Assembly: GCA_947494975.1 (NCBI GenBank)
Contig: CANLXA010000001.1
Location: forward strand, 186,001-250,000
DNA from: an uncultured Roseicyclus sp.
GTDB lineage: Bacteria > Pseudomonadota > Alphaproteobacteria > Rhodobacterales > Rhodobacteraceae
Direction: 5' to 3'
DNA length: 64,000 bases
The translations under genes were made by a program, and so were the position numbers. The notes under the pieces were generated by a model. It was not told the origin of the DNA, made no database searches, and was given only the letters and a program-made list of their open reading frames with translations. Positions 3,348-17,325 of this stretch are shown piece by piece; positions within the stretch are counted from its first letter, which is position 1; each line of letters begins with the position of its first letter.

Positions 3348-3647
3348 ATCAACCTCATTCAGAACGCCATCGGCGCAGCGGTTCGTCCGGCATGGAAAAT
3401 CGGTGTCCTTCTATGGGCGTGGCAGGGGGGGCGCAAGGGGGGCGGCCCAATAAGGGCAGGCAAAAATGCCCACCGCGCGCCAATTGCCCAGCGCACGGGC
3501 GATCACGGGCCGGAGAGCGTTCCCCCACCACCGCGTAAGGGAAACCGGACGTTTACAATTCCCCCCCGTTTTCGTCATATTTGCATCGAGTTGATATGCG
3601 TCCCCGCCCCTTCCTTTCCGATGTGACCTGAGACAAGGCCAAACGTG
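3348..3647. other. Divergent intergenic region between tig and kinase gene
   Basis: No gene is seen in this 300-base gap. It must carry the tig promoter on the minus strand and the kinase promoter on the plus strand. The best plus-strand candidate is TTTACA at 3552-3557 and CATATT at 3576-3581 with 18 bases between, about 65 bases before the kinase start. This is a weak match, read by eye. Confidence 0.35.
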
Positions 3648-5948
3648 ATGAGTGACGATCCCAGCAAGACAAAGATGCTGCCCGATGGCCCGGCGGGCGA
3701 ATTGCCGGTCGGCGCGGAGCTGTCTTCGGGGATGTACCGCGTCACCGGCCGGATCGCGGCGGGCGGCTTCGGCATCACCTACGAGGCGCGCGACAATCTC
3801 GACCGCAAGGTGGCCATCAAGGAATGCTTCCCCGCCGGGCTCGCCCTGCGCGCCGGGGATTTCACGGTCTCCGCCGCCTCCGCCTCCACCACCGAACCCT
3901 TCGAGACGGCGCGCAACCTGTTCCTGCGCGAGGCGCGCACGCTGGCCACGCTCCGCCATCCCAACATCGTGCATGTCCAGACGCTATTCGAGGAGAACGG
4001 CACCGCCTACATGGCGATGGACTATATCGAGGGCCGCGACCTTCAGCACATCATCGACCATGAACCGGAGAAGCTGACGCCCGCCTACGTCATGGAGCTG
4101 ACGCGCACCTGCCTCGGCGCACTGGATTATCTGCACCGCGATGCGCCCGAGCGCGGCAAGGACCGTTTGCTGCACCGGGATATCAAGCCCGCCAATATCC
4201 GCATCGACCCGCTCGATACGCCCGTCATCATCGATTTCGGCGCCGCCCGTCAGGAAACCAAGAACCGTTCCCGCGCGGCAGGCACGTTCCGCGTCGTCTC
4301 CGATGGCTATTCACCCAACGAATTCTACGTCTCCGGCACCGAGCAGGGCCCGGCCTCCGACCTCTATTCGCTGGCCGCCACGCTCTACCATTGCATCACC
4401 GGGGCCGCCCCCGCCCCCGCCGATGAACGCGCCCAGAAGGTCTCTAACGGCGAAGACGATCCCTATGAGCCCATCGAAGGGCGCTTTCCCGGTCATGATC
4501 CGCGCCTGCTTGGGCTGATCGACCGGGCGCTGGCCCGCCCGCTGAAAGATCGCCCTATCGATGCCGCCGCCTGGTTCGCCGCCATTCCCGATGCCGCCAC
4601 CCGCATCGTCGAGGCCCCCATCGCGACCGCGCCCATCGTGGTGGCCGATAACAGCACGGCCGATACTCCGCCTCCGCCGGGCCCCGCCGGCTTCTGGAAA
4701 GGCGCGGCGGTGGGTGGCGTGGCGCTCGCCCTTCTGGGCGGCGGCGCCGTGGCGCTGGCCCCGGGGCTCCTACCCGGAGGCAGCGGCACCGGCCCCGATG
4801 CCGAAATGCAGCGCCAGCTGACCGAGGCGGAAGAGGCCCGCGCTGCCCTGCAAGGCGAGTTGAACAACATGTCGGGCACGATCGAAGAGCTTGAGATGGA
4901 TGTGGTTCAGGCCGAAACCCTCCGCGAAACCGCCGTCAACCGCGCCCAGGAACTCGAAGAACGCGTGCGCGATCTCAGCACGCAGCTGGCCGCCGCCGAA
5001 GACGGCGGTACGGCGGAAACCATCGAATTGCGCAACCAGCTGAACCAGGCCGTTGTGGAGCGTGAGGATGCCAGCGGCGCCTTGCGCGCGCTGGAAGACC
5101 AGGTTGCAACCCTTCAGGCCGAACTGGCCGCCGCCAACGAGGCCCGCGCCGCCATGCCCGACATGGACGTGCTGCTTTCGGCGCGCGGTGACGCCGAAGC
5201 CGCCCGCGACGCGGCGCTGGCCCGGGCCGAGGCGCTGGAAGAAGAATTCAACGCGCTGGCCGCCCAGATTGCAGAAGGCGGCGCGGAGGACCCCGATCTG
5301 GCCACCCTGTTCGAGGAACGCGATGCCGCCCTTGCGGCGCGCGATGCCGCACAATTGAATGCGGAACGCGCGCAGGCCGATCTGGCCCGCATGGCGGAGG
5401 ATCTCGCCGAGGCTGAAAGCGCGGCCGACCTGTTGGATATGGAATTGCGCGCCGCGCGCGCCGAGATCGAATTGATGCTGGCGCGGGCGACCACGCCCAA
5501 TCCCGGCCCCAACAGCCCCGGCGGCAACGTCGCCTGCCCCACCTGGGCCGTGCCCGGCACGCAAGTGTCCTATACCGGCACCGATATCTACACGCCGCAG
5601 ACGCTTCCGGTGCGCGCAGGCGGATCAACCCCGCTCAGCGCCTGTTCCGGCCTGCCCGCCAACGCCGTCGGGTTCAGCTCCGAGGTACCGGATTACACGT
5701 TCTTCCTCTCGGAAATGGAGCAGTTCCGGCGGCTGGAGTTTCAGGTCGCGTCCGATTGCGATTCCACGCTTCTGGTCAACACCCAAGACGATGTCTGGCA
5801 CTTCAACGACGATGCCAATGGCACCATCCTGCCGCTGCTCGACCTGACGGGCCAGCAGGCCATCGAGGGCCGCGTGGATGTCTGGGTGGGCACGATAGAC
5901 GGCACAAGCTGCGATGCGAGCCTGGAAATCGAAACCTGGCTGAACTGA
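3648..5948 (+). CDS. Membrane Ser/Thr protein kinase with coiled coil and periplasmic Cys-containing domain
   Basis: A Hanks-type kinase fills residues 30-310: glycine loop GRIAAGGFG (34-42), Lys58 in VAIKEC, catalytic HRDIKPAN (His176-Asp178-Lys180) and the DFG triplet at 196-198. One membrane helix follows (about 349-371), then about 240 residues of heptad-like Ala/Glu-rich coiled coil. The C-terminal domain (about 635-766) has cysteines at conserved places. With the kinase inside, that domain lies in the periplasm. It closely resembles the secreted protein at 1-422. I chose the ATG at 3648 over the GTG at 3645; the difference is one residue. The gene is convergent, at 15 bases, with the phosphatase 5963-6613. 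It probably phosphorylates FHA-bound targets from the facing operon; this is inference. Confidence 0.92.
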   Translation: MSDDPSKTKMLPDGPAGELPVGAELSSGMYRVTGRIAAGGFGITYEARDNLDRKVAIKECFPAGLALRAGDFTVSAASASTTEPFETARNLFLREARTLATLRHPNIVHVQTLFEENGTAYMAMDYIEGRDLQHIIDHEPEKLTPAYVMELTRTCLGALDYLHRDAPERGKDRLLHRDIKPANIRIDPLDTPVIIDFGAARQETKNRSRAAGTFRVVSDGYSPNEFYVSGTEQGPASDLYSLAATLYHCITGAAPAPADERAQKVSNGEDDPYEPIEGRFPGHDPRLLGLIDRALARPLKDRPIDAAAWFAAIPDAATRIVEAPIATAPIVVADNSTADTPPPPGPAGFWKGAAVGGVALALLGGGAVALAPGLLPGGSGTGPDAEMQRQLTEAEEARAALQGELNNMSGTIEELEMDVVQAETLRETAVNRAQELEERVRDLSTQLAAAEDGGTAETIELRNQLNQAVVEREDASGALRALEDQVATLQAELAAANEARAAMPDMDVLLSARGDAEAARDAALARAEALEEEFNALAAQIAEGGAEDPDLATLFEERDAALAARDAAQLNAERAQADLARMAEDLAEAESAADLLDMELRAARAEIELMLARATTPNPGPNSPGGNVACPTWAVPGTQVSYTGTDIYTPQTLPVRAGGSTPLSACSGLPANAVGFSSEVPDYTFFLSEMEQFRRLEFQVASDCDSTLLVNTQDDVWHFNDDANGTILPLLDLTGQQAIEGRVDVWVGTIDGTSCDASLEIETWLN

Positions 5949-5962
5949 CCGCTGTCGCGGCC

Positions 5963-6613
5963 TCAAAGCTGCGCGGGGTCGTATTCCGTCTCGATCCATT
6001 GGCGCAGCGGGATCGGCCCCGCCTCCAACCGTTCGGCGTAGGCGTCAAGGAACCGGTCCAGCACGCCGGTCTTGGACAGGCTGATATGCCAATGACGCAG
6101 GCTCAGCGCGCGGCGCGCCTCGGCCACGGGCTTGCCTTCGATATGGATGTGCCAAATGGCGGCGGCCAGCCCGGTCCGGTCCGCGCCGGATTTGCAATGG
6201 ATCAGCGCCGGGCGTTCGATCGCATCGAAGGCATCGAGAAGCCGGATCAGCGCGGCCACGCGCGGCGCCTCCCGCGCGGTCAGCCCGACATTCTTCAATC
6301 GCAGGCCCAGCGCGGCGCAGGTCTCGGCCTCGAAGGCATGAACCGCCCCCTGGTCGGGCCGCAGGCTGATCACCTCGACGATGCCGCGCGCCTTCCACAG
6401 GGCCAGGGCCGCCGCATCGGGGTGGTTGGAGCGGTAAACCCCCTCGGCAATCCGCCCCTCGTTGCGCCAGCGCCGCCGCAGCCAGCCGTGATCGAACAGC
6501 GTCGCAAAAACGCGCCCCTGCCACCGCCCCATCTCGGTATCGATCTTCTGATCGTAGCGGCGGGTCAGCGCGTCATAGGCACCTTTGGCTTTCTGGCTCC
6601 AGGTCAGGCTCAT
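5963..6613 (-). CDS. Tyrosine/dual-specificity protein phosphatase
   Basis: This 216-residue protein carries the Cys-x5-Arg phosphatase loop HCKSGADRTG, with Cys140 as nucleophile and Arg146 binding phosphate. IAEGVYRSNHPD and VISLRPDQ upstream are typical of the atypical DSP/PTP fold. No signal peptide is present, so it acts in the cytoplasm. The start MSLTWSQ at 6613 is preferred; a longer in-frame opening to 6760 would run through the promoter region of the divergent kinase gene. It lies between the two kinase genes, divergent from the second with about 100 bases between starts. This fits a role in removing phosphate from the kinases or their targets, though a lipid or nucleotide substrate cannot be excluded. 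Confidence 0.88.
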   Translation of the reverse strand: MSLTWSQKAKGAYDALTRRYDQKIDTEMGRWQGRVFATLFDHGWLRRRWRNEGRIAEGVYRSNHPDAAALALWKARGIVEVISLRPDQGAVHAFEAETCAALGLRLKNVGLTAREAPRVAALIRLLDAFDAIERPALIHCKSGADRTGLAAAIWHIHIEGKPVAEARRALSLRHWHISLSKTGVLDRFLDAYAERLEAGPIPLRQWIETEYDPAQL

Positions 6614-6716
6614 GGCCTCCCCTTCCCCCAAGGGCGCCGCGAATACAAGTCTTTGTGAGATTGCGGGAAAACATCCGTTTACAGATGGCCCCCGCGCGCG
6701 CGAGGATGCGCGCATC

Positions 6717-9668
6717 ATGCCCAACGATACGCCCAATCCCCGCGGCCCCAATGCCGTCACCCATCAACTGCCCGCGGGTGAGCTGCCTCCGGGCTGGACG
6801 CTTCTGGGCGGCCAGTACGAGATCGTGCGCCTGATCGCGTCGGGCGGGTTCGGCATCACCTATCTCGCGAAGGATACGTTGGGCCGCGACGTGGCGGTGA
6901 AGGAATGCTTCCCGCTTGGCCTTGCGCAGCGGCAGGCCGCGACCCATGCCGTCAGCGCCACCTCCGCCGGCACGTCAGAGCATTTCGAGACCGCGCGCGC
7001 GCAATTCCTGCGCGAGGCGCGGATGCTGGCCGCGCTGCGGCATCCCAACGTCGTCCATGTCCAGACGTTGTTCGAGGAAAACGGCACCGCCTATATGGCG
7101 ATGGATTTCATCCATGGCCGCGATCTGCAGGAAGAGATCGTGGGCGCCGACGGCGGGATGTCCGCGCCCCGCGTGCTGGAACTGGCGCGCGATCTTCTGG
7201 GCGCGCTGGATTACGTCCACGGTCAGGGCGTCTTGCACCGTGATATCAAGCCGCAGAACATCCGCATCGACCAGTTCGGGATGCCGATGCTGATCGATTT
7301 CGGCGCGGCGCGGGCGGAGACCCAGGCCCGCTCGCGCATGGCCGGCACATTCCGCGTGGTGACCGACGGCTATTCCCCCCATGAATTCTACGTCTCCGGC
7401 GCGCCGCAAGGGCCCCATTCGGATCTCTACGCCCTGGCGGCCACGCTGCATCACGTTATCACCGGGGCCGCACCGGTGGCCGCCGATGAACGCGCCAGCG
7501 CCATTGCGACGGGCAATGCCGACCCCTACCGATCCATCGCGGACAAGCACCCTGAACACGATGGCCGGCTGCTGCACCTGATCGACCGCGCCTTGCGGAT
7601 GACGCCCGCTGACCGGCCCGATAACGCCGCCGCATGGCTCAACACGCTGACCGATGCGCCAACCACGCTGGTGGCGCCTGTGGCCACCGCGGAGCCCGCC
7701 CCGCCCCGCCCCAGCCGCCTTGTGCCGGGCCTGCTTGTCGGGGCCCTTCTGGCGACCGGAGCGGGGGCCGGGATCTACATGGCGCAGCCCGCCTGGCTGT
7801 CGCCCGGAATGGGCGAGATGATGGAGCGGATGGGCCAGCTTGAGGTCAGCCTTGCGGAGGCCGAGGCCGCCCGCGCCGACGCCGAGAGCGAGCTGGTCAC
7901 GCTGCGGGGCACCTTGCAGGCCGCCGAGGAGGAATTGGCCCGCCTTGAGGCCGCCGATGGCGATATGGCGGCAACGATGGCCGAGCTTGAGGTTGCCCGG
8001 TCCGCACGGGATGCCGCCGCCGCCCAGGTCGCCGGTCTGGAACAAGTCGTGGCTGATCTGACCGCCACGCAACAGGCGCTGGAAGAGGCCCGTGCCGAGC
8101 GTGACGCGGCGGAGGCGCGCGCCGAGGCCGCCGAGGCCGCCCGCGCCGAGGCCGAAGCAAGCGCCGCCACGCTGCAAGAAAACCTCGCCGCCGCCACTGC
8201 CGAGCTTGAAACCGCTGCCGCGCAGGCGGCCACCCTGGCGCAGGTCGAGGCCGATCTGACCGAGGCCGAGGCCGCCCTCTACGCCGCAAGTTCGCGCGCA
8301 TCCGCTCTGGAAGCCCAGCTTCAGCTTGCCCTTGATGGCGAGGTGGATGCCGACGCGCTGCGCCAGCAATTACTGGAATTGCAGCGCACAATGACCGAGA
8401 TGGAGATCGAGCGGGATCGCCTTCTAGAAGAGATCGAGGCCGCCAGCGCCTCGACGGAATCCAATGCCGGTGAGGTGGAGCGCCTGCGTACTCGCGTGGC
8501 GGAGCTGGAGGCCGAAAACGACGATCTGCGGGCCGCCCTGACCCGCGCGGAAACCGCCCTTGGCCAATCGGGCGGCCCGATCTGGAGCCCCGGCGACCCG
8601 GACCCCTGGGTGGAGGGTGCGCGGATCAGCGCCCCCAACGGTACGATGGCGCTATTGCCCCGGTTTTCGTGGGACCATGCCCGCGTCGCGCTCGCCGACA
8701 GCACCGGCGGCATCGCGCTCTTTGATCGCGACACCGGCGCCTACGAGGCCCACCTGGCGCGCGGCATCCCGACCGAGATCACCCGGCTCGGCTTCTCGTC
8801 GGGCGGCAACTACCTGATCGCGACCACGCCCAACGGTACGCCCAACCGGCTCTACCACATCCCCACCCGACGCGAGGTCCTGCGCTTCGAGCCGACCACC
8901 GTCACCACGTCCAACCGCGCGATCAGCCGCGACGAGAGCCATTTCATCTATACGCGCGCGGCTTCCGGCGGACAGACCGAGATCGTGTCCATCGACCTGG
9001 CCGTCCTGAGGGCCGCCGCCCCGGGCACCTCCGCGCCGGGGGAACGCGTGCTGGATACCGTCGCCGCCAATTCCGGCATTCGCATCTCGTTTGCCGAAAC
9101 CAGCAACCGGATCACCTTGATCACCACCGACACGGTGCGGATCTACGCGCCCGATGGCACACTCCTTGCCAATACACCCAATCGCATGGGCGTGGCGGCG
9201 GCCATCTCGCCGCTCGCCGATGATAGGGGCCTTCTGGTCCTGCGCGGCACCGGCGCGGTCGAGATCTTCGATGGCCCGATCAGTCAGAATCTGGCCGCGC
9301 GTATCGAGGCCACGGCCAATTACACGCGGTTCCGCTTTTCCGGCGACCGGCTGCATTTCCTGCGCGCCAATGCCCAATCCTGGGAGATCCTCGATCTGAT
9401 GACCGGTGAAGTGCGCGGTGCCGGGCCGGTGGGCCAGGGTTATGGCCAGGCGGAAATCTCGGTCTCCGCCGATGGCTCCATGCTGTTCATCGGCTCGATC
9501 AACGGGCACCCGGCCCGGCTTCTGGATGTGGCGACAGGCGAGGAGATGCAGCAGTTCGGCGATGCGGTGGAGGGCTATTTCGGGTTCGACAACCGCCATC
9601 TGGTGGCCGGTCGCGAAGGCACCGCCGCCGCACAGGTCTGGCGCGTGAACCCGGCCCTCGCCGACTAG
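6717..9668 (+). CDS. Membrane Ser/Thr protein kinase with coiled coil and propeller-like domain
   Basis: This 983-residue protein is a paralogue of the kinase at 3648. The kinase domain covers residues 33-310: SGGFG in the glycine loop, Lys62 in VAVKEC, HRDIKPQN (174-181) and DFG at 194-196. The segments VVHVQTLFEENGTAYMAMD and DGYSPHEFYVSG are nearly identical between the two. One membrane helix lies at about 335-355, then a long Ala/Glu coiled coil (365-645). The C-terminal 320 residues contain repeated beta-rich units such as ALADSTGGIALFDRDTG and RLLDVATGEEMQQFG, resembling WD40/quinoprotein-type beta-propellers. The start at 6717 is used because the in-frame extension to 6585 overlaps the divergent phosphatase gene. 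It ends 8 bases from the convergent TauE gene. Confidence 0.9.
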   Translation: MPNDTPNPRGPNAVTHQLPAGELPPGWTLLGGQYEIVRLIASGGFGITYLAKDTLGRDVAVKECFPLGLAQRQAATHAVSATSAGTSEHFETARAQFLREARMLAALRHPNVVHVQTLFEENGTAYMAMDFIHGRDLQEEIVGADGGMSAPRVLELARDLLGALDYVHGQGVLHRDIKPQNIRIDQFGMPMLIDFGAARAETQARSRMAGTFRVVTDGYSPHEFYVSGAPQGPHSDLYALAATLHHVITGAAPVAADERASAIATGNADPYRSIADKHPEHDGRLLHLIDRALRMTPADRPDNAAAWLNTLTDAPTTLVAPVATAEPAPPRPSRLVPGLLVGALLATGAGAGIYMAQPAWLSPGMGEMMERMGQLEVSLAEAEAARADAESELVTLRGTLQAAEEELARLEAADGDMAATMAELEVARSARDAAAAQVAGLEQVVADLTATQQALEEARAERDAAEARAEAAEAARAEAEASAATLQENLAAATAELETAAAQAATLAQVEADLTEAEAALYAASSRASALEAQLQLALDGEVDADALRQQLLELQRTMTEMEIERDRLLEEIEAASASTESNAGEVERLRTRVAELEAENDDLRAALTRAETALGQSGGPIWSPGDPDPWVEGARISAPNGTMALLPRFSWDHARVALADSTGGIALFDRDTGAYEAHLARGIPTEITRLGFSSGGNYLIATTPNGTPNRLYHIPTRREVLRFEPTTVTTSNRAISRDESHFIYTRAASGGQTEIVSIDLAVLRAAAPGTSAPGERVLDTVAANSGIRISFAETSNRITLITTDTVRIYAPDGTLLANTPNRMGVAAAISPLADDRGLLVLRGTGAVEIFDGPISQNLAARIEATANYTRFRFSGDRLHFLRANAQSWEILDLMTGEVRGAGPVGQGYGQAEISVSADGSMLFIGSINGHPARLLDVATGEEMQQFGDAVEGYFGFDNRHLVAGREGTAAAQVWRVNPALAD

Positions 9669-9675
9669 CCCGACG

Positions 9676-10629
9676 TCAGGTCAGCAACAGATACAGGCTC
9701 GACGCGATGATCCAGATCGAGGCCAGCGTCTTGAGCCAGAGACTCCCCAGAAGCGACGCGATCCCCTTGGCCAGGAACCCGCCCACAATCGCCCCCGGCA
9801 CCGCGATCAGCGCGACTTCCAGCCGCACAAGCCCGCCCAGGTAGCCGTCCCAAAATCCCGTGAACACGCACACCACGCTGACCCAGACCGCGACGGCAAT
9901 GGCCACCTTCGTCGGGAACCGGCGCAGGATCAGGTAGATCGCCAGAAACTCACCGATCCCCACCGAGAACAATGCCGTAACTGCGCCGCCGATCACGCCA
10001 AGGCCCAGAAGTACCCAGATCTCGCCCGGGCTGACCCAGATCTTGCGATCCTTGGCCGCCTGACGGCGTTGGATCCAGGTGAAGATCAGCAGCACGATGC
10101 CAAGCGTCAGCGAGAAGAACTTGAACCAGATGATCAGCTTGTCGCCTTCCACATCCACGAAGGCTTGCGTCAGCAAAAGCGCGGGGATGCCGGTGGCCAA
10201 CGGCGCGAAGGTCAGCGCGGCGAGCGTCTGGCTCGCCACTTTTTCGTCCCAGGCCAATCCATCCTTCACAAAGATCGAATAGGCCCAGGTGAGCGCGCCG
10301 ATGGACATGCCGAAACACTGGATGGTGAAGGAGACAGCGACGGATTCCTCGGGCTTCAGCGTGGCCAGCTGCACCAGTTCCGGCGGGATCATGATCGTGC
10401 CGTCCTGAAGCGCGGTGAAGACCGGCACGAAGACGACGCCCCCGCCGGTGCCCGTGGCATTGGCGATGATCGCGCCCATGATGCCCACCGGGAAGAAGAA
10501 CCACAGCCCCATCAGGATCGTCAGGTCGAGCGCGCTTTCGCGGAACAGCAAGGCGTAGGCCGCCGCCAGAAGCAGCAGGTGGATCGGGATCCAAGCCTTG
10601 ATGACGGGCTTCATGGCTGAATCGTGCAT
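9676..10629 (-). CDS. TauE/SafE family membrane exporter/permease
   Basis: The protein has about 317 residues and eight or nine hydrophobic segments. The N-terminal half contains GIMGAIIANATGTGGGVVFVPV, the glycine-rich signature of the TauE/SafE (former DUF81) family. The second half repeats the pattern around GLGVIGGAVTALFSVGIGEF. Family members export sulphite, sulphoacetate or other small organosulphur anions, so the substrate is not determined here. The start is either 10629 (MHDSAMKP) or 10614 (MKPVIKAW); neither has a strong ribosome site. It is the last gene of a six-gene minus-strand operon with FHA and PP2C genes, 5 bases after the previous stop. Confidence 0.85.
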   Translation of the reverse strand: MHDSAMKPVIKAWIPIHLLLLAAAYALLFRESALDLTILMGLWFFFPVGIMGAIIANATGTGGGVVFVPVFTALQDGTIMIPPELVQLATLKPEESVAVSFTIQCFGMSIGALTWAYSIFVKDGLAWDEKVASQTLAALTFAPLATGIPALLLTQAFVDVEGDKLIIWFKFFSLTLGIVLLIFTWIQRRQAAKDRKIWVSPGEIWVLLGLGVIGGAVTALFSVGIGEFLAIYLILRRFPTKVAIAVAVWVSVVCVFTGFWDGYLGGLVRLEVALIAVPGAIVGGFLAKGIASLLGSLWLKTLASIWIIASSLYLLLT

Positions 10630-10634
10630 CTCGC

Positions 10635-11093
10635 TTACATCTTCCCGAATTGGCCGCCCTTGAACCGCCAGCGCACGAAGATCGCTTGCAGCGGGCCGAG
10701 GAGGAACAGGAAGGAGGGCACGAAGACGAGCGTGAAATGCAGCGTCGCGATCCAGAGTCCCTGCCCGCCCTGGAAGGCGAATTCCGGCAGGTAGGGGATC
10801 AGGCCCGCACGGGCCACGAAGAACACGATGCCAAACTCCACCCAGGAAAAGAAGAACTGATAGGCAAACGGCCAATCGCGATCCCACCGGGTTGTCTGCA
10901 GGAAGATATAGACCGGGTCGAGCAGCAGGCCGAGGCCGGTGATCGTGCACAGGAACCACACGAAAATCTGGATCGTGCGCCAATCCCATTGCCAGCCGGT
11001 CCAGTAAAGACCGTAGAGGAGCGTTATCGGTATACCGATGAACAGAAACAGGAAAAGGCGCGTCTGGATGCGGCCGGCAAGGGTGGGGATCAT
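10635..11093 (-). CDS. Small polytopic membrane protein, 152 aa
   Basis: There are four likely transmembrane segments (around residues 12-32, 40-62, 80-105 and 112-140) and very many aromatic residues. No catalytic motif or named family is recognised. It is sandwiched between the FHA-flavoprotein gene (12-base gap upstream) and the TauE gene (5 bases to its start), so it is almost certainly translated with them. A membrane partner of the exporter or a membrane anchor or electron-transfer partner for the flavoprotein is possible; this is inference from position only. No haem-ligand histidine pairs are obvious. Confidence 0.75.
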   Translation of the reverse strand: MIPTLAGRIQTRLFLFLFIGIPITLLYGLYWTGWQWDWRTIQIFVWFLCTITGLGLLLDPVYIFLQTTRWDRDWPFAYQFFFSWVEFGIVFFVARAGLIPYLPEFAFQGGQGLWIATLHFTLVFVPSFLFLLGPLQAIFVRWRFKGGQFGKM

Positions 11094-11105
11094 GTCATCT
11101 CTCCT

Positions 11106-13115
11106 TTACGGCCGCGCGCCGGTCATCCACTTCGCCCATCCGCCAAGCGAGCGGAGCGGGCCAAGGTTTCGGACCTTGTGGATGCGCTCGGTCACCAGAT
11201 GGTCTACCGATCTGAGCGCGGAATATTGCAGTCCGAGAAAGCTGTCGACGGCCAGATAGGGGCCGCCCGTGGTGATCGTGCCCGCCGCGTAGACCCGCCC
11301 GTTGCCGTTTCTCAGCCCCTCGATCTCGAAATCATTGGTGCAACGCAGGCCCGTGGGCCCGCCCTTCGTCGCCCGCCCATCGCTGAGCCGATAGGCGTGG
11401 TTGCGCGACAGGTGATAGGTGTCGAGCAGATCGGCCAGAAACGGCGAGCGGCGGATATCGGCGATCAGGCCGGTGCAATCCACCAGGTAATCGGCGTTCA
11501 GCTCTTCGCGGTTGCCCTCCTGCGTGTCGATGCTCACCTGCACACCGGCGGGTTGCTTTTCGCCCTGCGGCGGCAGCGGCGCGAGGTCCGAGATGGTGCC
11601 ATAGATCGGCCGATACCACCCCTCCTCCGCGCCGCGTTCGGCAATCGCGATCCAGTCCGAGCGTTCCGCCGTCGTGGTGCCGCCAAGCTGCGACAGCATG
11701 ATGCCGCGATCCTCTTCGCTGGCATTCTCGTATTCTACGCGCAAATCCCCGCCCCAGCAGCTTTTGGGCCAGTTAAAGGGCTGAATTTCCACGTTATTGC
11801 GCACCAGTCGCCTGGCCTTGCGGAACACGGCCCCGTCTCGCGGCCCGATCGCCGAGCGCATCGAATGCAGGATCCGGATCTCCGGGTTCTTGGCCCGCGC
11901 CTCGCTCAGGCGCTGGATGATCCGGCTGGCCACAATCCCGCGCCCCCGCACCACGAACTGCACCGGGCCGCCGCGCCGTTCCGCCTCCACATACATCTGG
12001 TCATGGGGCTCATAGGCGTTGGCAACCTGCGCCCGCGCATCGGGGTGGTTGGTGATGAAGGTCTGGAAATCATCGACAAACCGGGTGGCCGGGTAGCCGG
12101 TGGACAGATGCACCGCGTCGGCGATCAGGAACCGGTTGCGCGCCTGGCCCGAGGCTTCCCCGCCCCACAGCTTGTAGGCCACGGCATAGCGGCCATCGGA
12201 GGTTTTGCGTAAGCCCAGAACCTGCGCCTTGAGCAACATGTCCGACCAGCCGATGCGCTTGGCCTCGACATCAAGGCTGTCGAACACATCCCCCGCCCGC
12301 GGCGTGTAGCTTTCCGACAGGGTCGGCTCGCCGAAGACCTGAAAAATGCCCTTCACGCCGATGCCCTTGCCGACCTCGCGCATCGCGTAACCGGGGAAGC
12401 CCCAGATATTGTCGGGGCGGCTCAGCGCGTTGGAGCGCAGCCGCTCGTGATCTGGGATCTGGCTGTTCTTGCAGTATCTTTTGTAGGTCTGGTAGCAGAC
12501 CTCCTCTGTCCCGATGGCCCTGATATCGGAGGCGGGCACCCCGTAGCAGCGCAGGTGATCGACCCAGACGAAGCTGCCCAGCCCGCCGCCCACGGCGCAG
12601 AACTTGACCTCCTCGATGGGATGGCCCGACGCGCGCAGCGCCTCGATGCCGACTGTCTCCTTGCCCTCGAACTCCGCGTCCGGGAAGGTCCGGCGCGTCG
12701 GCGGCGGGGCATCGTCATCGGTAATGACAAGGCGCGAGACAAGGCTCGCATCCACCTCAACCCCCGCGATCCGGGTGGCCGAGGCCGGGCTTTCGGCGGC
12801 CGCCAGAAGCTCCAGGATCCAGCCGGGGATGGAGATCTGATCGCCCACCGCCAGCACCTGTTCATCGACCCGCGTGCCGTTCACATAGGTGCCGTTGGTG
12901 GAGCCCTCATCCTGCACCCGCACATCCTCGGCGCTCAGCACCAGGCTCAAGTGGCGGCGGCTGACGGCATCACCCGTCAGGGGCACATCGGCCTCTTGCG
13001 ATTTTCCGATCAGGAACGCGCCGGGTTCTTCACATAGAAGAATGCGCGAGGAGCCGACGGTATTGCCATCAATGCCGATCTGGCGGACCCGAAAACGGAC
13101 GGGGAAAGTGATCAT
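11106..13115 (-). CDS. FHA domain-flavoprotein oxidoreductase fusion
   Basis: The N-terminal FHA domain (about residues 15-100) has the family marks GKS (37-39), SRRH (52-55) and STNGTYVNG (72-80). After a linker, a dinucleotide-binding motif VGGGLGS lies at 175-181. A second, RGRGIVASR, lies at 390-398. A C-terminal DYLVDCTG (542-549) and VYAAGTITTGG (608-618) match the late FAD-contact motifs of the FMO/pyridine-nucleotide oxidoreductase superfamily. It is therefore probably an FAD- and NAD(P)-binding enzyme tethered to a phosphothreonine reader. No CxxxxC redox disulphide is seen, which favours monooxygenase- or hydroxylase-like chemistry over disulphide reduction. It is cytoplasmic; no signal peptide is seen. 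Substrate unknown. It sits mid-operon, 21 bases after the FHA/zinc-ribbon gene. Confidence 0.82.
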   Translation of the reverse strand: MITFPVRFRVRQIGIDGNTVGSSRILLCEEPGAFLIGKSQEADVPLTGDAVSRRHLSLVLSAEDVRVQDEGSTNGTYVNGTRVDEQVLAVGDQISIPGWILELLAAAESPASATRIAGVEVDASLVSRLVITDDDAPPPTRRTFPDAEFEGKETVGIEALRASGHPIEEVKFCAVGGGLGSFVWVDHLRCYGVPASDIRAIGTEEVCYQTYKRYCKNSQIPDHERLRSNALSRPDNIWGFPGYAMREVGKGIGVKGIFQVFGEPTLSESYTPRAGDVFDSLDVEAKRIGWSDMLLKAQVLGLRKTSDGRYAVAYKLWGGEASGQARNRFLIADAVHLSTGYPATRFVDDFQTFITNHPDARAQVANAYEPHDQMYVEAERRGGPVQFVVRGRGIVASRIIQRLSEARAKNPEIRILHSMRSAIGPRDGAVFRKARRLVRNNVEIQPFNWPKSCWGGDLRVEYENASEEDRGIMLSQLGGTTTAERSDWIAIAERGAEEGWYRPIYGTISDLAPLPPQGEKQPAGVQVSIDTQEGNREELNADYLVDCTGLIADIRRSPFLADLLDTYHLSRNHAYRLSDGRATKGGPTGLRCTNDFEIEGLRNGNGRVYAAGTITTGGPYLAVDSFLGLQYSALRSVDHLVTERIHKVRNLGPLRSLGGWAKWMTGARP

Positions 13116-13136
13116 AATGTAGTCTCCGTCAATACG

Positions 13137-14003
13137 TTACGAGTGCACCCAATAGGATGTGCCATCGCCCAGTCTCTGCCCGCAATATCGGCAGTTTTCG
13201 CCAGGCAGATAGGGGTTGAGCTGGCGGCATTCGGTGTTGGTGCAACTCAGCCCCTTGCCCTCTTCCGACGACATGATCCGCAGCAATTGCCCCCGGATTT
13301 CGATGGTGGCCAGATGGTCCATATCGGCGCGTTCGCCGGTCTCCATCATGCGGCGGTTATGGGCAACCTCGTCCCCTTTGCCGCAGATCGCCGTGATCCC
13401 GCCCGCCCCGTCGGGGCCAATCGCCACAAGGCAGACCGCCCCTTCGGTGTTCAACCCGTCCAGGGCCTCCTGCGCCGGGCCCTTGCGGCGGCGCATCAGC
13501 ACTTCGTCGGGGCCACCGGCCACCAGCACGATGGACACACCATCGAGATCCAGCGCCTTGAGCCCTCCGGTGGACGAACTGTCATAGACAAGGTGGAGCG
13601 GCTGCCCGATGGCATCGACGCGGGCCTGCTTGGGTGAACAGACCGTCACCTGAAGGCCGACCGTCTCGAAGGCGCGCATCGCGCCCGGCGCCATGCGCAC
13701 CGTTCCGCCCCGCCCAATCGGCACCGGCGCGGAGCCCGCCTGCGCCAACTGCGCCACCCCGTTCGACGACAGGTCGGTCACGACAAGCCCGCCATCGGTG
13801 CTGCCGGTGATCGTCAGGTGTTGGCGCGACAGGGTGCCGTAGCCATCGCCGAAATGCACCACGCGCCCGTCACCCGCCGTGATCCGGCCCACATTCTCCG
13901 CCCCGAACCGGCCGATTTCCACCGGCAGGCGCAGGGTTTGCGTGCTCAGAAGCTCCGCCCCTGTTCCCGCATCGCGGATCGAAAGCTCCACATCGTCGGT
14001 CAT
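13137..14003 (-). CDS. FHA-domain protein with C-terminal zinc ribbon
   Basis: The 288-residue protein begins with an FHA domain (about 20-120), with GR at 31-32, LSRQH at 58-62 and SSNG at 79-82. That domain should bind phosphothreonine peptides. The middle part (130-245) has no clear family, though it contains the hydrophobic strand VSIVLVAGG. The C-terminus has four cysteines (254, 259, 271, 274; CTNTEC ... CRYC), a small zinc-ribbon pattern. No membrane segment is seen. It lies between the PP2C gene (24-base gap) and the FHA-flavoprotein gene, in the same operon. It probably acts as an adaptor; no enzymatic activity is visible. Confidence 0.8.
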   Translation of the reverse strand: MTDDVELSIRDAGTGAELLSTQTLRLPVEIGRFGAENVGRITAGDGRVVHFGDGYGTLSRQHLTITGSTDGGLVVTDLSSNGVAQLAQAGSAPVPIGRGGTVRMAPGAMRAFETVGLQVTVCSPKQARVDAIGQPLHLVYDSSSTGGLKALDLDGVSIVLVAGGPDEVLMRRRKGPAQEALDGLNTEGAVCLVAIGPDGAGGITAICGKGDEVAHNRRMMETGERADMDHLATIEIRGQLLRIMSSEEGKGLSCTNTECRQLNPYLPGENCRYCGQRLGDGTSYWVHS

Positions 14004-14027
14004 ATCTGTGTCCCCGTGGTCGTCTTG

Positions 14028-16439
14028 TTAGTCATGGATCGGCTTGATCTGCGTCGCGCGGTGATTGTTGAGGAAGACCGGCCCGAACCCGTGGCCCGAT
14101 GTCGATCCTGGTCGCGTGATGATGGCAAAACACCGGTGCCGTTGGCAAACCCGTTGGATGCCGTAGCTGAGCGGCGGCAGGGACGGTGCGGCACCTGCGC
14201 CGCCATGGCCCTGGCCAGGGGTTGCCAAAAGTGGCGGGCCCGGGGCCATCAGGTTGGCGCGCTGCCCTTCGGTCGACGGCACCGTTGGCGCGGCGTTCAC
14301 CTCCTCCTCCTCGGGCAGGAGGAGCGGGCGTTGGCCCGGCCGCGGCTCGGGCGCGGCATCCGCATCCGGTGCAGGCACGGGTCCCGGAACCGGCGCGCCT
14401 GCGGGCGCATTCATCGTCTCGTTCAGGCGCCCGATTCCGGGTGTCGGCACGATCTGCCCCGGCATCGGCGTGCCGCCTGCCTGCGGCAGCGCGGGCGGCT
14501 GGCTTGGGGCCGGTGTCGGAACCGGCGCAGGGGCCGGCGCGGTGGGCTGGCCCGACGCCGTTGCGGCCCCGGCGCCCGTTGCGGTGCCATCGATGACGGA
14601 TGTGATCCCGACACCTGTGGTGCTTCCGCCGCTTGGCCCGGCGGTTGCGGCCCCGGTCTGCGGTGCAGCCACGGCCTCCTGTTCGGCTGGGTCCGCGGCG
14701 TCGATGTCATTGCCGTTCAGCGGCGCAGCCGCGGCCGGATCAACGGGCGATTGCGGCTCCGCCACCTCTTCGACCAGGCCGGTTTCGGGCGCCTCTCCGG
14801 CTCCGTCAGCGGCGGCGTCCACCGACCCTTCCGGTGCGGTGGTGTCGGGGCGCGGCGCGGGGCCACGCGAAATCTGGGCCTCATCCCCGCTGCGCTGCGG
14901 CTCGATGGCCGGGGCCGCGGCCTCGTCCTCCGCCGCTGCGCCTTCGTCCGGGGCCGGGCCGTCATCGGGGTCCGCCGCGTCAGGCGCTTGCTCTTGCGCG
15001 GGCTCAATCTCAGCCTCCGCAGGTTCGGGCTCGGTGGCATCGGGCTCAACCGCGCCGGGCTCCGGGCCCTCCGGGTCAGCCGCCGTCTCGGGCTCCGCCG
15101 GGTCGGCCGAGGGGCCATCATCGATCAAAATTTCTTCCGTCACGGCGGGCTCGGCCGCCTCAGCGGCGGGCTCCTCCGCGTCAGGTATGTCGGCGCTATC
15201 TGCGTCGGCGGGCACGCCCGCCTCTGCCTGGGGATCGCCCCCTTCGGCGGCCACGGGGTTGGGATCCGCGTTTTCTGCATCCGCATCGACGGACACATCC
15301 GCAACCGGCTCCGACGTCCCGGGCTGTGGCGTGCCCAGGGCGGTGTCCGTTGCGTCTTGCTCACTCGGCAGGCCGAAAATCAGCCCAAGTGCCAGTGCCG
15401 CCCCGCCGAGAAGGGCCGCTGGCATCACCCATCGTCGTCCGCCGCTGGGTCGCGGCACGTCCCCCGGCGTCTCGGCACGGGGCGCGGCATCGGCGGGAGC
15501 GTCGGCCAATGCGGCGGATGGGCCCGCAGCGGCAGCACTCGCCGCGCCCGCCTTGCTCGCCTCAACCGCCCGCTCCAGGGCCGAGGAGGCCGATGTGGCC
15601 GCACTGTCGCCGCCGCCGCCACCGGCCATGCCTTCGGTCAGTTGCAGCACCAGGATCGCGGTATTGTCCTGCGTCGGATCGTCAAGCTTGTGCAGCGCCG
15701 CCATCAGGTGATCGGCGATCTGGCGGCTGCTGGCCGTGGCGCCGACGCGTTCCAGCACCGTCACGATCTCGGCCTCGTCCAGATATTGCAGCCCGTCGGA
15801 CGCCTGGATCAGGACGTCACCGGGATCAAGCACCGTCGCCATCTTCGGCACATCGGTGGATTTCACCCGCCCGCCCATCAGGACGGAGGTCAGCGCGTTG
15901 CGATCGGGGTGATTAGCGGCCTCCTCCTCGGTGATTTCGCCGGATTTCGCCATCTGGTCGATCACCGGCGCCATCGAATGGTCTTCGTTCAACTGCCGCA
16001 ACTTGCCTTCCCGCCACAGATACAGGGGGCTGTCGCCGACCGACGCCCAGTAGAGCCGATCCTCGAACATCACCGTGGCCAGGAACGTGGCCCCCATGCC
16101 CTTCAACCGCCGGTCCTCGGCGGCGCGGTCGCGCAGGACGTCATTGGCGGTGTCGATGGCCGAGGTCAGCTCGGCCTGCAGGTTTTCTTCCAGCGTCGCG
16201 CCGTCATGCATCAGGAATTTCAGGTGGCTAACGGCGTCGATCACCACAAGGCGCGAGGCCAGATCACCGGCGGCATGCCCGCCCATCCCATCGGCCAGAA
16301 CCGCAAATCCGCGATCCATGCCGCCGTGGAAATCGGCCAGCAGCGTGTCTTCCTGATAGGGGCGTTTGCCCTGCCACAATGCGGTGGCGACATCGTAACC
16401 GATGCTGGCCGTTCCGCCCGAGCCCTTCGCGGCGCTCAC
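14028..16439 (-). CDS. PP2C-type protein phosphatase with membrane helix and long acidic tail
   Basis: The start is the GTG at 16439, which overlaps the upstream stop as GTGA; a TTG at 16451 is the alternative. The PP2C/PPM domain spans residues 1-270, with RPYQED (26-31), LADGMGGH (Asp50-Gly51), ASDGL (Asp215) and QDNTA (Asp258), the metal-binding set of the family. A single membrane helix lies at about 336-357. The remaining 440 residues are highly acidic Ala/Glu/Asp/Pro repeats, then Pro-rich sequence, and lie outside the inner membrane if the phosphatase is cytoplasmic. The enzyme presumably reverses phosphorylation by the two kinases. The tail is unusual in length for a PP2C and may span the periplasm or contact cell wall; this is inference. 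Confidence 0.9.
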   Translation of the reverse strand: MSAAKGSGGTASIGYDVATALWQGKRPYQEDTLLADFHGGMDRGFAVLADGMGGHAAGDLASRLVVIDAVSHLKFLMHDGATLEENLQAELTSAIDTANDVLRDRAAEDRRLKGMGATFLATVMFEDRLYWASVGDSPLYLWREGKLRQLNEDHSMAPVIDQMAKSGEITEEEAANHPDRNALTSVLMGGRVKSTDVPKMATVLDPGDVLIQASDGLQYLDEAEIVTVLERVGATASSRQIADHLMAALHKLDDPTQDNTAILVLQLTEGMAGGGGGDSAATSASSALERAVEASKAGAASAAAAGPSAALADAPADAAPRAETPGDVPRPSGGRRWVMPAALLGGAALALGLIFGLPSEQDATDTALGTPQPGTSEPVADVSVDADAENADPNPVAAEGGDPQAEAGVPADADSADIPDAEEPAAEAAEPAVTEEILIDDGPSADPAEPETAADPEGPEPGAVEPDATEPEPAEAEIEPAQEQAPDAADPDDGPAPDEGAAAEDEAAAPAIEPQRSGDEAQISRGPAPRPDTTAPEGSVDAAADGAGEAPETGLVEEVAEPQSPVDPAAAAPLNGNDIDAADPAEQEAVAAPQTGAATAGPSGGSTTGVGITSVIDGTATGAGAATASGQPTAPAPAPVPTPAPSQPPALPQAGGTPMPGQIVPTPGIGRLNETMNAPAGAPVPGPVPAPDADAAPEPRPGQRPLLLPEEEEVNAAPTVPSTEGQRANLMAPGPPLLATPGQGHGGAGAAPSLPPLSYGIQRVCQRHRCFAIITRPGSTSGHGFGPVFLNNHRATQIKPIHD

Positions 16440-17107
16440 GTGTCGGACCAATCGAAATCGCTGCCGCAGAGCGCGACGAACCGCAGGCTGGTCGCCCCGA
16501 TCCGGATCGTATCGCCGCTGGTGAGCGTGTCGGAATTGAGCACCGGCGCATCGTTCAGGCGCACGATATTGGTCTTGCCACCATGGCTCAGGTGAAACAT
16601 GCGCGCCTCGTCGTCATAGGTCACGAAGGCGTGGGGATCGCGGCTGATCGTGTCGTCGCCGAAATCCACCTGCACGGCGTTTTCCTCGCCCCGGCCGACC
16701 GGGTTCATGCCCGCCACCAGCGGGGCGGAGGCACCGCGGCCGGGCCCGCCGGTCACAACCAGCCAGCCAACCACCGGGGCAACGGGCGGCGCGGCGGCAA
16801 GCGCGGCGCCATCGGCCTCGTCCCGGCCCTTGCCGCCATATCCATGAATGCGCGTCTTGGGGCGCGCATGCCCGCTGGCATCCCGGCCGGAACGTTCCGG
16901 CGGCTCCGGCGGTGTCGGGGGCGTGGGCGGCTCTGGCACGTCCAGGGGCCGGGTGGCCGAGGCCGGAGGCGGCGGCGGCGGGGTCGCATCCAGCGGGCGG
17001 GTCGCGGAGCCACCGCGCGCGGGCGGCGGAGGCGGCGTCGGAACCGCGCCATCATCGGGCACGCCGCCGTCCAGTTCATCATCGGTCAGGATGGGTTTCT
17101 TGGCCAT
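16436..17107 (-). CDS. Proline-rich FHA-domain protein, first gene of signalling operon
   Basis: The start MAKKPILT at 17107 has an AGAGG site 6 bases upstream; in-frame ATGs at 17113 and 17125 are less well placed. Residues 20-75 are mainly proline and carry SATRPLD twice (34-40 and 50-56), a candidate phosphothreonine target. An FHA domain fills residues 115-215, with GRG near 138-140, SRD at 155-157 and KTNIVRLN (178-185). No membrane segment is seen. Its stop overlaps the start of the PP2C gene. By analogy with known kinase-FHA pairs it may be both substrate and reader of the kinases; this is inference. The 218-base gap upstream must hold the operon promoter, but no clear -35/-10 pair was found. 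Confidence 0.82.
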   Translation of the reverse strand: MAKKPILTDDELDGGVPDDGAVPTPPPPPARGGSATRPLDATPPPPPPASATRPLDVPEPPTPPTPPEPPERSGRDASGHARPKTRIHGYGGKGRDEADGAALAAAPPVAPVVGWLVVTGGPGRGASAPLVAGMNPVGRGEENAVQVDFGDDTISRDPHAFVTYDDEARMFHLSHGGKTNIVRLNDAPVLNSDTLTSGDTIRIGATSLRFVALCGSDFDWSDT

Positions 17108-17325
17108 GGTCATCCTCTTGCTCATCTGTCGTGTAAATGGGCCCGGCCCATCCGCGTCACATCCTATCCCACCGGCACGCGCCGTGGGGTGCATGTTCCA
17201 ATTGGTAGCATACTCCCCTCAAACTTGAAGGAATTTGGCCAGGCTGGCGAGTGGCGGAAAACCTCAGCGCCCTGGGGGCTTTCTTCACGCGCCCGTGTGC
17301 CATACTGGGCCCCACGGCGGCGCCT

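Follow-up and report, generated by a model that had tools for sequence, protein, structure and literature searches.

The closest described relatives of the nine-gene locus analysed here, which lies in a 64,000-nucleotide stretch of an uncultured marine Roseicyclus sp. (contig CANLXA010000001.1, positions 186,001 to 250,000; hereafter the window), are systems in which Ser/Thr kinases, PP2C phosphatases and FHA proteins work together. In the threonine phosphorylation pathway of the type VI secretion system (T6SS), a membrane kinase, a PP2C and an FHA protein are encoded together, as is the case here, and in Agrobacterium the genes of PpkA, TagF-PppA and Fha lie inside the T6SS imp operon (PMC5995506). 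As for the defence system KKP, its kinases bear cold-shock and FHA domains (PMC11341870). The window also has a PP2C and two kinases, though not as one consecutive triplet, but these kinases carry neither a cold-shock nor an FHA domain as judged by Pfam, and the core genes differ from those of KKP and PD-T4-6. Two other groups resemble the flavoprotein of the locus. The GarA/OdhI/FhaB-type regulators are the closest to its FHA domain in PDB and NCBIfam, although the window domain falls below the NCBIfam cut-offs and is fused to an enzyme. The N-hydroxylating monooxygenases (SidA, KtzI, DfoA; PF13434) have the fold and two dinucleotide motifs in common with it, but the window protein has its ATGY-like motif before the NAD(P) motif, an apparently obligate membrane partner and an FHA fusion.

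Unlike that of the T6SS pathway, the output of the window locus is a flavoprotein with a four-transmembrane (four-TM) partner, in a genome without VipB. Control by kinase, PP2C and FHA protein is already known, and the flavoprotein/four-TM output pair is apparently undescribed: no paper recognisable as treating it was found in the open-access full text of PubMed Central (PMC), which is weak evidence, as subscription journals mostly lie outside that collection. The reading preferred here, with a probability of about one half, is that of a membrane flavoenzyme encoded by the locus, controlled through phosphothreonine and docked on an obligate four-TM partner.

The joint occurrence of the two proteins was assessed with two alignments, of the flavin domain (A3, at E 1e-20) and of the membrane protein (A4, at E 1e-8). 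Among cyanobacterial genomes, 84 of 291 hold the flavin domain and 84 of 291 the four-TM protein, and these are identical genomes; among actinomycetes, 15 of 296 hold each, again in identical genomes. None of the 587 genomes of the two phyla has one partner alone. The identity of the genome lists was established on transcribed lists for the cyanobacteria and by eye for the actinomycetes. Fisher values for co-occurrence are 2e-75 and 2e-25, which overstate it because kinship is ignored. Copy numbers of the two genes match in most cases. Two of each gene were found in G810, G888, G895, G906, G983 and G1244, while G1136 has three flavin domains with three good membrane-protein matches and a weak one. 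Copy numbers do not agree in G854 (one flavin domain, two membrane-protein matches) and G1234 (an extra weak membrane-protein match), and the matches are fragmented in G806, G949 and G973. The genome searches score part of the first-look candidates, and weaker copies may escape them; the positive status of G687, G688 and G692 predates the drawing of the class samples.

Seventy-eight loci were read: 20 alphaproteobacterial, 38 cyanobacterial, 1 of Chloroflexota and 19 actinobacterial, in which order the counts by lineage are given throughout. Of the cyanobacterial A3 match places, 32 out of 91 were read as large stretches, picked for long contigs; of the actinomycete places, 16 out of 18 were read. 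The pair lies within 8.5 kb in 20/20, 31/38, 1/1 and 19/19 loci, and within 300 bp in 20/20, 17/38, 1/1 and 19/19.

Concerning the flavoprotein, the C-terminal flavin part of the window protein (about 500 amino acids) matched no Pfam family, and in 17 sequences both dinucleotide motifs keep their glycines without exception. An AlphaFold2 model of the whole FHA-flavoprotein (mean predicted local distance difference test score, pLDDT, of 77.4) has its best matches in the ornithine hydroxylase SidA (E 1.9e-17, TM-score by target 0.67) and in KtzI (0.72), with dihydrolipoamide dehydrogenase behind (0.46). Its profile, compared with that of three PF13434 proteins taken from genomes of the family, was colinear over 393 columns (E 5.4e-5, probability 66.5%). 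The flavin domain is, on this sequence evidence, a distant relative of the N-hydroxylating monooxygenases standing outside PF13434. Membership of PF13434 itself was rejected, as the window protein gave no match, only 1 of 17 relatives matched, at E 0.14, and the motif is misplaced. N-hydroxylating monooxygenases have an ATGY/ATGF signature behind the NAD(P) motif. ATGF was found in the three such enzymes compared, whereas the STGY of the window protein (338) stands before its NAD(P) motif GRGIVA (391), and the aligned place reads CTGL. The redox chemistry that the initial annotation had attributed to the locus may be inferred for the flavoprotein from its modelled fold and its motifs. Against PDB, the sequence profile found FHA chains and otherwise cholesterol oxidase and rubrerythrin at E 0.8. 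A viral structure library gave eight matches at E <=0.001 (best TM-score by target 0.58), several of them to the FHA part only, and a plasmid collection a single Nonomuraea record, without annotation. Sixty-two flavin domains were placed in a tree, in which the alphaproteobacterial sequences (20) and the cyanobacterial ones (38) are each split off by a well-supported branch (100/98 and 100/99, respectively), while the actinobacterial and Chloroflexota branches are long and their placement is unsure.

The four-TM protein matched neither a Pfam nor an NCBIfam family. It was modelled as a four-helix bundle (pLDDT 85), for which no fold match was found in PDB at E 0.001 or better. Twelve residues are invariant among 29 sequences and are found at both termini, in the central loop, at the end of TM2 and inside TM3; conservation is highest in the Arg/Lys-rich termini and the central loop, and lowest in the two opposite loops. 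Since the invariant residues concentrate in the Arg-rich ends and the central loop, this conserved Arg/Lys-rich face is likely to be the docking face for the soluble flavoprotein. In two actinomycete loci (L130:6939-9008 and L134:10532-12757), the membrane-protein domain begins a far longer protein; a second weak match to the membrane protein and a weak one to FHA lie downstream.

The window contains all nine genes, which span 3645-17194, according to open reading frame (ORF) calls combined with Pfam and motif reading:

3645-5948, + strand: STK1, Ser/Thr kinase (Pkinase E 2.5e-29; VAIK, HRD, DFG).
5963-6613, - strand: CX5R phosphatase of the DSP/tyrosine phosphatase type (Y_phosphatase3 E 2.1e-6; HCKSGADR).
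6717-9668, + strand: STK2, Ser/Thr kinase (Pkinase E 3e-33; VAVK, HRD, DFG).
9676-10629, - strand: TauE/SafE-type transporter (PF01925 E 2.4e-15).
10635-11093, - strand: four-TM membrane protein of 152 amino acids, the flavoprotein partner (no Pfam or NCBIfam family).
11106-13115, - strand: FHA domain and flavoprotein with two dinucleotide motifs (FHA E 2.6e-15; distant N-hydroxylating-monooxygenase fold).
13137-14003, - strand: FHA-like protein of 288 amino acids with a C-terminal four-cysteine zinc ribbon (below the Pfam cut-off; motifs).
14028-16451, - strand: PP2C phosphatase (PP2C_2 E 2e-12; DGMGG, DDPTQDN).
16436-17194, - strand: third FHA protein, paired with the PP2C gene (PF00498 26.6 bits; SRDPH).

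The two kinases, two phosphatases, three FHA readers, TauE and small membrane protein listed by the initial annotation were all confirmed by motifs or Pfam, the 288-amino-acid FHA protein remaining below cut-off. That annotation had the locus end in TauE and the membrane protein; these two end the minus-strand run and not the whole region. Its last position, 17107, is an internal ATG of the third FHA gene, which reaches to 17194. In the source genome (4.5 Mb, 9 contigs, listed completeness 100%), the Pkinase profile has three match places, two of which are in this locus, and PF00498 at E 0.001 has two, one of them here. The clustering is not due to chance, because such matches are so few genome-wide and so many of them fall inside the locus. 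A second STK-FHA-PP2C set without flavoprotein is found in the same genome (L002/L023; L023:11374-14469, C1 ~391373-394468). Its PP2C and FHA protein are 47% and 50% identical to their window counterparts (L002), and its neighbours resemble, by eye, dynamin-type GTPases, a membrane metalloprotease and an RTX-like repeat protein.

The motifs of Ser/Thr kinase-PP2C-FHA signalling are intact in the kinases, the PP2C and the FHA proteins, the third of which shows the variant SRDPH in place of SRxH. Two of the three FHA proteins exceed the Pfam cut-off of 20.7 bits, with 57.0 for the flavoprotein and 26.6 for the third; the FHA/zinc-ribbon protein reaches 15.9 bits, yet possesses SRQH, SSNG and the four C-terminal cysteines, as well as a weak TagH match (17.4 bits vs. 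a cut-off of 120.25). Relatives of the third FHA protein adjoin PP2C in 16 of the 20 alphaproteobacterial loci, as they do in the other STK-FHA-PP2C locus that this genome has. The CX5R phosphatase was seen only in loci of the window's genus, which are 11 of the 20 alphaproteobacterial ones.

Simple hydropathy gave a single transmembrane segment in STK1 (residues 354-372), followed by a coiled coil and a C-terminal domain, and one in STK2 (335-353), also with a coiled coil and with a weak YNCE beta-propeller match at the C-terminus (E 2.1e-4, below cut-off). The PP2C likewise has one by hydropathy (342-360) and a long Pro/Ala/Glu-rich tail. As one hydrophobic segment sits behind the catalytic domain in each of the three proteins, their C-terminal parts are probably located outside the inner membrane. 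A congener (L044, 15160-17439) has the C-terminal domain of STK1 in separate proteins, both in tandem and alone, without a clear Pfam family. These proteins have signal-like N-termini, by eye, with which an outside location of the domain in STK1 fits. The periplasmic sensing suggested by the initial annotation is plausible, given the single transmembrane segment of each kinase and these L044 proteins.

Within the window's genus, the flavin domain was found in 13 of 13 sampled genomes, and the nine genes stand in identical order in 9 of the 11 loci uncut by contig ends, the window included. The contig-cut loci L006 and L007 were excluded from this count, and L003-L007 were assigned to five genus genomes, to judge from matching contig coordinates. 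The exceptions are L041, without the CX5R phosphatase, and L044, without STK2 and TauE. The flanking tig, d208 and d556 are also conserved within the genus, so that genus order alone says little. In the family sample (about one genome per genus) the flavin domain occurs in 2 of 295 genomes, the own genome included, and in the class sample in 1 of 385, the own genome only. A general conservation in Rhodobacteraceae was accordingly rejected, and the gene order for which the initial annotation had proposed a comparison across that family is kept in the genus but is not general to the family. The patchy alphaproteobacterial presence of the flavin domain may reflect either transfer or loss.

Outside the genus, the loci of Pseudosulfitobacter, Sulfitobacter, Filomicrobium, HKCCE2091 and G258 retain the FHA/zinc-ribbon gene, the flavoprotein, the membrane protein and TauE, and tig, d208 and d556 are absent from the read stretches of these five. 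A core retained with different flanks is a better sign of a unit than the synteny within the genus. L019 and L022 retain the same genes without TauE. The core is smaller than the nine-gene locus and consists of the FHA-flavoprotein, the four-TM protein and the FHA/zinc-ribbon protein.

Across all lineages read, the flavoprotein carries a fused FHA motif in 20/20, 34/38, 1/1 and 0/19 loci. Nearby genes were scored by tblastn. A separate FHA gene was found in 18/20, 35/38, 0/1 and 15/19 loci, a kinase in 18/20, 11/38, 0/1 and 9/19, and a PP2C in 16/20, 2/38, 1/1 and 0/19; TauE, searched with the window protein, was found in 17 of 20 alphaproteobacterial loci and in none of the other lineages. 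The two alphaproteobacterial loci without a tblastn FHA match have an FHA ORF by motif, and the Chloroflexota locus L015 has one by Pfam despite its tblastn score. An ORF that combines an FHA-like motif with a zinc ribbon is found on the same strand, at most 2.6 kb away, in 20/20, 20/38, 0/1 and 10/19 loci; among control ORFs more than 4 kb away, 2 of 1324 show the combination, the near count being per locus and the control per ORF on either strand. This motif count misses the FHA gene of L015, whose motif is divergent and which Pfam detects. In actinomycetes, a neighbouring protein combines a four-cysteine ribbon with an FHA domain (Pfam in both scanned), and in several loci this gene is followed by a CPA2 antiporter and a kinase.

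When neighbouring ORFs were clustered in 49 loci from beyond the genus (L008-L022, L024, L046, L077-L108), the largest families were the flavoprotein (in 45 loci), the membrane protein (35), small FHA proteins (35) and kinases (21), followed by an ABC-ATPase-like family (9) and smaller ones, including PP2C (5). Hints at the substrate from the neighbours are inconsistent across loci. A GDSL hydrolase family is present in 5 of the 49 (Pfam on one), and a family common to four related actinomycete loci is a sulfate permease in the one scanned. L130 has two methyltransferases. In L133 (5928-7520) an Orn/Lys/Arg decarboxylase (E 1.9e-31) lies downstream of the pair on the same strand, possibly hinting, in this one locus, at an amine substrate. 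CPA2-type antiporters adjoin the pair in three phyla (L120:12305-13990, L015:13162-15363 and L012:15260-17470), those of L012 and L015 also bearing Usp domains. Finally, a caspase-domain protein (PF00656 E 3.3e-13) is found near the kinase of the G258 locus (L046:3457-5058).

The preferred reading would work as follows. The kinases would respond to a signal from beyond the inner membrane by phosphorylating threonine residues of their own, of the four-TM protein or of the FHA/zinc-ribbon protein. The flavoprotein would then bind phosphothreonine through its FHA domain, which would bring this soluble NAD(P)H-dependent enzyme to the four-TM protein, at its conserved and probably cytosolic face, where the docked enzyme may act on a membrane-borne or poorly soluble substrate. 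PP2C would reset the switch, and TauE could export an anionic product or be another target of the control. As for the chemistry, that of a class-B flavin monooxygenase is the most likely, with quinone reduction and redox sensing as alternatives.

Several results weigh against this reading. The FHA fusion is absent from all 19 actinobacterial loci, and in 4 of them no FHA gene was seen by tblastn. By raw count, kinases accompany the pair in no more than 11 of the 38 cyanobacterial loci and 9 of the 19 actinobacterial ones. The four-TM gene is outside the stretch read in 7 of 38 cyanobacterial loci and on the opposite strand in five, and A4 was drawn from copies near the flavoprotein, so that distant homologues elsewhere could escape it. 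The self-contained transduction path proposed by the initial annotation is partly supported: in other lineages, too, the flavoprotein has FHA proteins and, more rarely, kinases as neighbours, but the nine genes are unequal, the CX5R phosphatase being in 11 of 20 loci and TauE in Alphaproteobacteria only.

The cyanobacterial loci, 27 of 38 of which have no kinase inside the stretch read, speak for the idea that two cassettes are simply neighbours, the flavoprotein, four-TM protein and transporter being independent of an STK-FHA-PP2C set that regulates other targets. The repetition of this set, without flavoprotein, in the genome (L002/L023) does so too. We nevertheless consider it rather unlikely, as in three lineages the flavoprotein bears an FHA domain of its own, in several it is accompanied by the FHA/zinc-ribbon gene, and actinomycete kinases adjoin it even where the FHA domain is unfused. 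A different role for the pair would be that of a redox sensor, reporting the NAD(P)H or thiol state and gating the neighbouring transporter. The flavoprotein KefF controls KefC in this way. The pair has a CPA2 antiporter nearby in 8 of the 19 actinobacterial loci (strong matches in 7, a weak one in L133), in L015 of Chloroflexota, in L022 and in cyanobacterial loci (three strong, two weak); PF00999 was confirmed by Pfam in L120, L119, L012 and L015, the L120 antiporter has a weak KefB match far under cut-off, and TauE occupies the antiporter's place in Alphaproteobacteria. Most cyanobacterial loci, however, have no such transporter nearby, and the transporter families differ between loci, which makes this sensor role improbable.

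Two kinases and a PP2C are also what KKP contains (PMC11341870), and both window kinases strongly match the PADLOC PD-T4-6 kinase models (E 1.8e-46 and 6.9e-51) as well as mad6, as would suit an anti-phage module with KKP/PD-T4-6-like kinases and phosphatase. These models are kinase domains that match kinases broadly, and the other seven proteins matched no PADLOC model. The cold-shock and FHA domains reported for the KKP kinases were not found on the window kinases by Pfam, within the genus the locus is a fixed element next to tig, and no prophage context was found in the genes read around it. KKP or another defence module was thus judged very unlikely despite the strong kinase matches. A regulatory arm of a T6SS, of the PpkA-PppA-Fha type, shares the kinase, PP2C and FHA protein types with the locus and could draw on the weak TagH match of the FHA/zinc-ribbon protein; its probability is close to nil, as a genome-wide search for VipB (PF05943) gave no match while the E. 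coli control was positive. The link was rejected on this one marker, other T6SS core genes not having been searched, and the statement of the initial annotation that the locus has no secretion gene is supported to that extent, in a genome listed as 100% complete.

To our knowledge, the outputs of such kinases in these bacterial groups are mostly unknown. The present analysis provides a defined protein pair without domain annotation, in 84 of the 291 sampled cyanobacterial genomes. Tentatively, the two undescribed families may form an obligate membrane redox complex of Cyanobacteria, Actinomycetota, Alphaproteobacteria and Chloroflexota, switched by phosphothreonine-driven FHA recruitment, with the FHA domain fused to the flavoprotein in three lineages and placed on a zinc-ribbon partner in the fourth. 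The reader domain fused to the enzyme offers a handle, since its phosphopeptide should reveal the kinase target. If true, this would provide a direct link between the Ser/Thr kinase signalling of bacteria and a membrane flavoenzyme.

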